Made by a program: the position numbers and the translations under genes
Shown here: piece by piece, positions 34,059 through 36,835 of the stretch
Numbering within the stretch: the first letter of the stretch is position 1
How the letters are laid out: each line of letters begins with the position of its first letter
DNA from: Haloarcula sp. DT43
Lineage (GTDB): Archaea > Halobacteriota > Halobacteria > Halobacteriales > Haloarculaceae
NCBI RefSeq assembly: GCF_037078405.1
Contig: NZ_JAYMGZ010000003.1
Span: 248,001 to 312,000, forward strand
DNA length: 64,000 nt
Direction: 5' to 3'
Notes under the pieces: generated by a model
Told to the model about the DNA's origin: nothing
The model's input: the letters and a program-made list of their open reading frames with translations, nothing else
Database searches by the model: none

Positions 34059-35894
34059 TCACTCGCCCAGCGACAGCGTGCCGTCCGACCCCACTTCGGC
34101 GGTCTCGCCGGTGTGGTACCAGTCGTCCCGGAGCGTCCGTGCGCCCGTCCGGTCGTCGTCGAGGAAGCCGCCCAGGACGGTCGGGCCGCGGACCAGTAGC
34201 TCCCTGTTCTCCGCCACCGCGAGTTCGACGCCGGCCATCGGGTCGCCGATTGTCCCCTCGACGTAGGCGTCCGCCCGGTTCAGAGCGCCGATGCCGGTCG
34301 TCCCGACGGAGCCGTACAGCTCACAGACCGGTACGTCGAGCCCCCGGAAGAAGTACAGCAGGTGGTCGTCTAGCTGGCCCGTTCCGGAGAGGGCGTACGT
34401 GAGGTTCGCGAGCCCCGCCTCCCGCCGGAGCGGCCTGTACACGAGCCGCTCCGCGGCCCGGTATTTCAGCGGCGTCCCCCGTCCCGCGACGATGTCCCGC
34501 CCGTAGGCGGTGACCCGGCCGCCGACCTTGCGCTTCATCCAGCCCATGTCGCCCAGTCGGTCCTGTATCGTCCCGTAGAGCTGCTGGTACATCTTCGGGA
34601 CGCCGACGAGCACGTCGGGCTCGACGGCCGCGAGCTGGTCGACGAACGAGTCGGCCCCGAGGTAGGCGACGGCGCTCCCGGTCGCCCAGAGGTAGTACGT
34701 CGCGACCCGCTGATAGACGTGTGCCAGCGGGAGCGAACACGTCCCGGTCGCCCCGGGGTCGACGGGTAGCTCCTCGCGGAGGCTCTCGGCTGCCGCCAGG
34801 AGGTTCCGGTGTGTCAGCGCACAGCCGGCCTGCTCCGCCGGGGCGGCCACGTCGAACGCGACCGTCGCCACCTCGTCGCCGTCCGTCTGGAGGCCGGGGA
34901 GCACCCTCGCCTCGTCGGTCGGCAGCGCCCCGAAATCGAGCACGGTCTCGACGGCCCTCGCGAGGTCCTCGGCCACGTCGCCCTCGGCGACGAGCCCGGT
35001 CGCGCCGGTCCGTTCGATGACCTCGGCGGCCCGGTCGTCGCTGGCCGACGGGTAGAGCGCCACCGGGACGAGCCCGGCGAAGTGACAGGCCAGGTCGAGG
35101 ACGGACCACTCGTACTGGGACTGCGCCCTGATGGCCAGTCGGTCCCCCGGCCGCAGGGCCGTCGAGAGGAGGCCGCCCGCGATAGCTTTCGCCCGGTCTG
35201 CCATCCCCTCGAAGCTCCGCTCGACGAACTCGCCGTCGGCCCGGACGAGCGCCGCGGTCCGGTCCCCGTACTCCGAGGCGACGTCCTCGAACCAGGCGGC
35301 CACCGACCCCTCGGGGACCGACAGCGACCCCCCGTCGTGGACCTCGCTGTCGAGGCGCACGCCGGCGTCCTCGCTTCGCCGCTCGACCGGGACAGGGTCT
35401 TCCGACGCCGACCGGTCCTGGTAGAGCTGGCCGGGCTCGTACTCGTAGTCGTCGCTGACCTCGTTCTCGAAGTAGTCCGCGTAGTTCTGGTCCTCGTCGC
35501 TCGCGGCGATGTGGGCGTCGAGCCAGTCCCGGGCGACTGTCAGGACCTCCATCGTGACGTACTCCCCGTTCTCGTGTTTCTCGCGGAGCTCCCGGACCTT
35601 CCCGGCGAACTCCTCGTGCATCTCCCGGTGGTTGTAGAAACAGTCGCTGCAGTCCATGGCGTACCCGCAGTTCTGCATGAACTCCTCCTCGTCGCCGAAG
35701 TGGTACTCCGTGTACCGTTCTAGCTCCCGCAGGATGTCGCCGACCTCCTCCTCGGAGTGGCCCTCGTCCATCGCCGTGTGGAGGTCGTTCAGCAGTCCGA
35801 ACAGCCGCTTGTGCTGCTCGTCGAACCGCTCGACGTTGGTGCTGTATCGCTCCTCGTCCCACTCGGCGAATTCCCCCGTCGAGTCCGTGCCCAT
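34059..35894 (-). CDS. Bacteriohemerythrin fused to a degenerate acyl-CoA-synthetase-like domain
   Basis: A 611-residue fusion. Residues 1-142 are a complete bacteriohemerythrin with all diiron ligands: His28, His65-x3-Glu69, His89-x3-His93, His128-x4-Asp133; an insert with Cys76, Cys82 and Cys85 lies between ligands. After a polar linker (143-190), residues 195-611 follow the long-chain acyl-CoA synthetase fold (NLLAAAESL after the P-loop site, LPLAHVYQRV, GVPKMYQQLY, ELYG). Key catalytic parts are lost: the Gly/Ser/Thr P-loop is FDVAAPAEQAGCAL (347-360), the YGxTE motif is YGSVGT, HTGD is HTGE, and the roughly 100-residue C-terminal lid is absent. Probably an oxygen/redox-sensing pseudoenzyme. 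Start MGTDSTGEF begins the hemerythrin domain normally. Confidence 0.85.
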   Translation of the reverse strand: MGTDSTGEFAEWDEERYSTNVERFDEQHKRLFGLLNDLHTAMDEGHSEEEVGDILRELERYTEYHFGDEEEFMQNCGYAMDCSDCFYNHREMHEEFAGKVRELREKHENGEYVTMEVLTVARDWLDAHIAASDEDQNYADYFENEVSDDYEYEPGQLYQDRSASEDPVPVERRSEDAGVRLDSEVHDGGSLSVPEGSVAAWFEDVASEYGDRTAALVRADGEFVERSFEGMADRAKAIAGGLLSTALRPGDRLAIRAQSQYEWSVLDLACHFAGLVPVALYPSASDDRAAEVIERTGATGLVAEGDVAEDLARAVETVLDFGALPTDEARVLPGLQTDGDEVATVAFDVAAPAEQAGCALTHRNLLAAAESLREELPVDPGATGTCSLPLAHVYQRVATYYLWATGSAVAYLGADSFVDQLAAVEPDVLVGVPKMYQQLYGTIQDRLGDMGWMKRKVGGRVTAYGRDIVAGRGTPLKYRAAERLVYRPLRREAGLANLTYALSGTGQLDDHLLYFFRGLDVPVCELYGSVGTTGIGALNRADAYVEGTIGDPMAGVELAVAENRELLVRGPTVLGGFLDDDRTGARTLRDDWYHTGETAEVGSDGTLSLGE

Positions 35895-35996
35895 ACCCGT
35901 TCTGTTCACCCTTATTTGAAAAGCGACTCTCACGTTCCCACCGACTGAAAACGCGACCCCCATCACAAGTGGTTCCCGGGCGTCACTGCGGTCGGA

Positions 35997-36431
35997 ATGC
36001 GCACACTCAGTGACGAAGCGGTCGTCGAGGTCCTCGCGGGGAACGGCATCGGCGTGCTGGCGCTGTCGAGTCCGTCGGAGGCGACCCCGTACCCGGTCCC
36101 GGTCGCGTTCGGCTACGACCCGGCGACGGACTGCCTGGCGTTTCACCTCTCGGAGAGCGACGGGAGCCGGAAACACCGCTACTTGGCGGCGAACGCCAGC
36201 GCCGCCTTCACCGTCTACGAGGAGACCGAACCCAAGTCTGTGTGGCGAAGCGTCGTCGTCACCGGCGAACTGGTCGAGACGACCTACGGCGACGTGGAGC
36301 CGGCCCTCGCCTCGCTGGCCAGCAACACGCAGTTCGCGCCGAACCCGGTCAGCTGGGGCGGGACGGAGACGACCACGCCGTACGAACTCCGAATCGAGGA
36401 CTGGAGCGGGCGGGAGTTCCGGGTCGGGTGA
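35997..36431 (+). CDS. Pyridoxamine-5'-phosphate-oxidase-like FMN/heme split-barrel protein
   Basis: A 144-residue split-barrel protein. GIGVLALSSPSEATPYPVPVAFGYD, FHLSESDGSRKHRYLAANASAAFTV and VWRSVVVTGELVE (given here only in part by their core) follow the haloarchaeal PNPOx-like pattern in which Ser/Lys-His residues contact the flavin phosphate. Such small proteins bind FMN, F420 or heme and reduce unknown substrates. It starts 102 bases from the divergent hemerythrin-fusion gene, so shared control under redox stress is possible. Confidence 0.8.
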   Translation: MRTLSDEAVVEVLAGNGIGVLALSSPSEATPYPVPVAFGYDPATDCLAFHLSESDGSRKHRYLAANASAAFTVYEETEPKSVWRSVVVTGELVETTYGDVEPALASLASNTQFAPNPVSWGGTETTTPYELRIEDWSGREFRVG

Positions 36432-36559
36432 GCGGTGGGCACGGCCCGTCTCCTGCCGAGCCGTCGCTCCCCTTCGGCGGCGGCACGTTCTCACGCGATG
36501 GGAACCAGCGAACGTTGTTATACCCCGTGACACGTACGTACAACTGAGAGGTGACCACG

Positions 36560-36835
36560 ATGTTCCCATTCACGACCGCGTTACTCCAGCACGGACCGAT
36601 GGGCCCCCACGGCGGGGCGATGGGGGCGGGGACGGGCGCGACACCGGGCGTCTGGTGGCTGCTCCTGGCGCTCGTCGTCTTCGTGGCGATTGGGGGCCTG
36701 TGGTACCTGCGGCGACAACGGACGACCGCCCAGCCGGACTCGCTGGAGACGCTCAAACGGCAGTACGCGAACGGCGAGATAGACGAGGCGGAACTGGAGA
36801 CGCGGGCCGACCGACTGCTCCAGTACGAATCGTAG
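36560..36835 (+). CDS. SHOCT-domain small membrane protein
   Basis: A 91-residue protein with a Gly/Met/His-rich N-terminus (LLQHGPMGPHGGAMG), one membrane span (TPGVWWLLLALVVFVAIGG) and a C-terminal SHOCT motif, LKRQYANGEIDEAELETRAD. ATG at 36560 is preceded by a GAGAGGTG Shine-Dalgarno-like run at good distance; a GTG three codons earlier overlaps that run. SHOCT proteins are short oligomerisation modules of unknown role. The His/Met/Gly stretch could bind a metal. Confidence 0.8.
   Translation: MFPFTTALLQHGPMGPHGGAMGAGTGATPGVWWLLLALVVFVAIGGLWYLRRQRTTAQPDSLETLKRQYANGEIDEAELETRADRLLQYES

Follow-up and report, generated by a model that had tools for sequence, protein, structure and literature searches.

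A haloarchaeal hemerythrin joined to a degenerate acyl-CoA-synthetase-like domain and preceded by a conserved palindrome

The 64,000-nucleotide stretch of Haloarcula sp. DT43 DNA analysed here (hereafter the window) encodes a 611-residue protein in which a hemerythrin (Hr) is followed by the core of an ANL superfamily acyl-CoA synthetase, and comparison with related sequences strongly supports the view that this second domain is a maintained pseudoenzyme. For the protein as a whole we favor, with about as much doubt as confidence, a diiron Hr belonging to a low-oxygen regulon and carrying a lidless, ATP-independent, acyl- or carboxylate-binding ANL core as a regulatory or scaffold module.

Architecture of the fusion protein

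The gene and its parts occupy the following window coordinates:
34059..35894, minus strand: Hr-pseudoANL fusion gene, 611 aa, with ATG at 35894 and stop at 34059 (open reading frame and profile matches)
35445..35867, minus strand: hemerythrin domain, residues 10-150, including the Cys76/82/85 insert
34062..35300, minus strand: ANL core without lid, residues 199-611 (structure model and fold alignment)
34821..34856, minus strand: erased P-loop, residues 347-358 (motif comparison)

Both domains lie above their Pfam cut-offs (hemerythrin, residues 20-134, 47.5 bits against 25.3; AMP-binding, PF00501, residues 202-577, 122 bits against 29.9), and the N-terminal part is recognized as bacteriohemerythrin by NCBIfam (NF033749, 110.7 bits, cut-off 84). 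The reading frame and coordinates of the Hr/acyl-CoA-synthetase-like fusion proposed by an initial annotation are correct, and the layout is not a product of chance, because orthologs carry it too. Although the frame remains open upstream of the ATG as far as 36569, orthologs and promoter support a start codon at 35894. An AlphaFold2 model of the protein (mean pLDDT 85.5, pTM 0.70) consists of a helical Hr, a low-confidence stretch at residues 157-176 (pLDDT <50) and a full ANL N-terminal core.

All seven Hr ligands, which had been read as intact, are found in each of the 34 aligned fusions: H28, H65, E69, H89, H93 and H128 are invariant, and so is D135, which aligns with the Asp ligand of canonical Hr but is shifted by two residues toward the C-terminus relative to other Hrs. 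Position 133 is Asp in 29 of these sequences and Asn in 5, and D135, not D133, is probably the seventh iron ligand. The alignment comprises 34 of 37 fusion genes, leaving out that of genome G059 (a near copy of G114) and both copies of G294, for which frame errors are suspected. The Cys76/Cys82/Cys85 insert, also noted at the outset, is present in the window protein and in 34/34 fusions; the same cysteines recur in 10/10 lone haloarchaeal Hrs and in 0/22 Hrs from outside the class, which rules out a fusion-specific invention and marks the insert as a trait of haloarchaeal Hr. Compared with bacteriohemerythrin (NF033749; PDB 4xpx), the fusion is alike in its above-cut-off family score and its ligands, but adds the Cys insert, the two-residue shift before the Asp and the C-terminal pseudoenzyme. 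It provides the sole PF01814 match of its genome.

A fold comparison with VIA-align 2, covering the ANL part of the fusion only, placed residues 195-611 on positions 3-388 of 8wev_A, a feruloyl-CoA synthetase chain of 486 residues (Z 44.3, rmsd 2.0, 363 residues aligned); since the fit ends at residue 388 of 486, the fusion protein stops where the lid would start. Past motif A7 there remain 7-15 residues in 34/34 fusions, compared with 160-161 in four sister enzymes, so the C-terminal lid with its catalytic Lys is absent. TSGTTG of the A3 P-loop (TSGTTGxPKG) is found in 0/34 fusions and 4/4 sister enzymes, and identity at this site is 29.5% among 22 diverse fusions against 90.3% in the four enzymes. 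Motif A4 (PLxHxYQR), which in ANL enzymes forms part of the pocket wall on the acyl side, has 68.4% identity in the 22 diverse fusions versus 58.3% in the four enzymes; over the whole second domain, identity among the former is 46.6%. With YGSVG at A5 and HTGE at A7, the window protein has also lost the A5 Glu and the A7 Asp, so that every loss originally ascribed to it (P-loop, YGxTE Glu, HTGD Asp and C-terminal lid) is borne out. These two acidic residues are retained in all nine basal fusions, which still display P-loop traces such as YKLGTDKHPRG. As the Haloarcula group has lost both residues as well, the loss was stepwise, and early members of the fusion family may have kept some nucleotide contact.

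This residual signature is one argument for regarding the protein as an adenylating enzyme still, one that either dispenses with the canonical P-loop and lid or receives a lid in trans; another is that N-terminal ANL domains alone have been crystallized with acyl-AMP (PDB titles 5oe3, 5oe4). Such activity is nevertheless very unlikely, considering that the P-loop is missing from 34/34 fusions, with divergent sequence in its place, and that the DT43 genome contains no orphan lid: all 11 of its PF13193 matches sit beside a PF00501 core, which for this genome rules out a lid in trans. The closest comparison is with lone acyl-CoA synthetases of Haloarculaceae (L062-L065), about 37-43% identical to the fusion ANL core, which retain P-loop, YGxTE, TGD and lid, whereas the fusions lack P-loop and lid.

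Distribution, origin and selection

A scan of genome contigs recovered 14 loci, of which 12 hold full fusions with 49-88% identity; these come from Haloarcula, Halorientalis, Halosimplex, Salinibaculum and SHR40, and a class-wide search of 391 genomes found every fusion within the single family Haloarculaceae. There, 41/146 genomes have a match at 1e-40; once five genomes with a lone synthetase only and one with a lone or broken Hr are removed, 35/146 remain in which the domain order of the window protein is kept. The fusions form one clade in both the ANL tree (SH-aLRT 99), where the lone synthetases L062-L065 are their sister group, and the Hr tree (SH-aLRT 97), where lone haloarchaeal Hrs fall outside; the trees included 6 of 14 Haloarcula-like rows and 8 of 22 outside Hrs, and the Hr tree was built without L100 and L101, both of them broken. 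A single fusion event accounts for this most simply.

Some genomes depart from the single intact copy. G294 contains a frame-shifted duplicate (L066) and G332 a remnant in which Hr is followed by just the final residues of the ANL tail (L100), both genomes being without a nirK match. G450 carries two fusion genes (L056 and L057) and three lone Hr matches.

Across 14 Haloarcula-like genomes (91 pairs), omega is 0.114 for the ANL part and 0.030 for Hr, compared with 0.101 for an intact long-chain synthetase in 13 of the same 14 genomes (78 pairs; L124, a fragment, left out); for some pairs NG86 dS approaches saturation, which makes the omega of deep groups uncertain. The second domain is thus under purifying selection comparable to that on an intact enzyme (0.11 versus 0.10), and the earlier suggestion of an open frame and a maintained pseudoenzyme agrees with this value and with the retention of the fusion by orthologs. 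Given that omega resembles that of an intact synthetase and that P-loop and lid are gone, the domain appears to be retained for something other than ATP use. That the dead domain is decaying neutrally, a view for which the broken copies in G294 and G332 might be cited, is contradicted by the same comparison and, with frames open in all 34 aligned members, we consider it barely conceivable.

Flavoprotein neighbor and promoter palindrome

Upstream of the fusion gene, the window contains the following elements:
35912..35923, minus strand: putative TATA-like element, -29 to -18, assigned from sequence
35935..35951, minus strand: palindrome TTTTCAGTCGGTGGGAA, at -57 from the fusion ATG
35997..36431, plus strand: divergent PPOX-type flavoprotein, 144 aa (PF12900, Pyridox_ox_2, 54 bits, cut-off 27)
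36488..36504, reading on both strands: second palindrome
36560..36835, plus strand: small membrane protein with a SHOCT domain (27.0 bits, at cut-off), downstream of the second palindrome

A PPOX-type gene lies directly upstream of the fusion, in divergent orientation, in 15/21 loci compared. At more than 110 bits, orthologs of the flavoprotein occur in 28/146 Haloarculaceae genomes, each adjoining and divergent to the fusion as judged by coordinates (counted by hand from the search listings), so that 28/35 fusion genomes have the neighbor and 7/35 do not. The protein scores below the cut-offs of two F420-dependent PPOX subfamilies (TIGR04023, 22.3 of 85.6 bits; TIGR03618, 17.8 of 79.05 bits), and may exchange electrons with the diiron site.

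This association underlies the proposal of a detoxifying pair, in which the PPOX flavoprotein would reduce the diiron Hr and NO or O2 would be consumed during low-oxygen or denitrifying growth, with the ANL core serving only for docking, as a scaffold. Consistent with it are the adjacency just described, a nirK match above cut-off in 30/35 fusion genomes versus 50/111 others (counted by hand, with the partial matches of G269 and G424 scored as absent) and a palindrome upstream of nirK in G229. The nirK link is, however, confounded by kinship; G294 and G395 are without nirK, and G267 is also without a full match; moreover, a scaffold role leaves the conserved A4 motif unexplained. On balance we regard this pair as rather unlikely. 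The flavoprotein could instead be the reductase in an O2-using chemistry, whereby the diiron site would oxidize a fatty acid or acyl-CoA held by the ANL core. Joint conservation of the two domains, including motif A4, speaks for such a reaction, but the Hr ligation sphere is of the O2 carrier type and the domains are joined by the stretch of pLDDT <50 at residues 157-176, making it very unlikely.

The palindrome is a property of the fusion promoter. The pattern TTYYCA-N6-GRGAA, or a looser form of it, is found at -57 to -59 in 34/35 fusion promoters (30 strict), with a TATA-like element farther downstream near -28, and in 300 shuffles of the fusion upstream regions it appeared in at most 2; the sole upstream region without it is that of the L057 copy in G450. 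Fusion genomes lacking the flavoprotein have it too, so the palindrome belongs to the fusion. The second palindrome of the window, of the same type, lies beyond the flavoprotein gene and 72 bases before that of the SHOCT membrane protein. The published haloarchaeal denitrification motif CGAA-N4-TTCG precedes anaerobic genes, including nirK and heme genes (PMC5746218, PMC10062603). As described there it is likewise a palindrome before anaerobic genes, but TTYYCA-N6-GRGAA differs from it in sequence; CGAA-N4-TTCG is absent from 35895-35996, upstream of the fusion, and is ruled out as an element of this promoter.

Genome-wide, strand matches to the pattern far outnumber those to a reversed control (20 versus 2 in the DT43 genome, 29 versus 1 in G229 and 23 versus 1 in G267). 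In 25/50 strand matches at loci, an open reading frame of at least 60 aa starts 56-63 bases downstream, compared with 226/3200 random positions. In DT43, the genes behind such sites encode a DmsR_N/HTH_10 regulator, the siroheme decarboxylase AhbA/B, a NirJ/AhbC-like radical SAM protein, a multicopper oxidase, an MCP, and DoxX and SHOCT proteins; in G229 and G267, for which only sites with a locus (L140-L164) were read, they include COX2, a heavy-metal ATPase, CtaA, DsbD_2 cytochrome biogenesis, universal stress proteins (Usp), the copper nitrite reductase nirK (in G229) and another PPOX protein. Several other sites are intragenic or precede genes that have no evident connection. With the sites of G229 and G267 covered to this extent, no target besides the fusion was found to recur as an ortholog in all three genomes, and no identical regulon emerged; Usp and copper-oxidase families are found at sites in two of the three. 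From these targets we infer that the sites mark a regulon of respiration at low oxygen, for which the DmsR-like protein is the candidate regulator.

Two further sites are recorded for their surroundings. In L129 (1501-3015), a palindrome precedes a candidate RiPP precursor of the Htur_1727 family and a pseudo-SAM/SPASM radical SAM protein; in L131 (1501-1517), another lies between two divergent genes, one for the siroheme decarboxylase AhbA/B and the other anthranilate-phosphoribosyltransferase-like.

Proposed function, precedent and significance

In the reading that we favor, low oxygen would lead to production of the fusion protein under the control of a DmsR-like regulator. Its diiron Hr site would bind O2 or perhaps NO, and the lidless ANL core, making no use of ATP, would bind an acyl or carboxylate ligand, the pseudoenzyme module thereby tuning or localizing the Hr protein. 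In a more specific and doubtful version, the fusion is a receptor whose ATP site was erased and whose acyl pocket was kept, the occupancy of that pocket being integrated with the O2 or redox status of the diiron/tri-cysteine site and passed on to the flavoprotein. Of the O2/redox-sensing pseudoenzyme originally put forward, the pseudoenzyme part thus stands on firm ground, whereas support for sensing is only indirect and comes from the complete set of diiron ligands and from a palindrome common to low-oxygen genes.

To our knowledge, there is hardly a known case in which a catalytically dead ANL superfamily protein has been kept as a sensory or scaffold module, and the literature search returned none by title. 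Nor did it find a study devoted to an Hr/AMP-binding protein. The layout itself, first thought to be undescribed, has a precedent: one clause of a 2016 PLoS One article attributes long archaeal hemerythrins with an AMP-binding domain to Methanococci (PMC4919030). The same Pfam domain pair is involved, and the portion of that article concerned with these proteins, unlike the present work, offers no motif, selection, partner or promoter analysis. Since all fusions found here are Haloarculaceae, the Methanococci label mentioned in that clause may reflect a class-name problem, and the proteins could be the same. Within the literature searched, the pseudoenzyme state, the flavoprotein link and the palindrome appear to be unreported.

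With intact relatives as a sister clade, the fusion family makes the loss of ATP use by an ANL enzyme traceable step by step, and the palindrome, differing from the published denitrification motif, offers a way into how haloarchaea control their genes at low oxygen. If the receptor version were true, the protein would constitute a combined lipid/oxygen switch of haloarchaea within a previously undescribed low-oxygen regulon.
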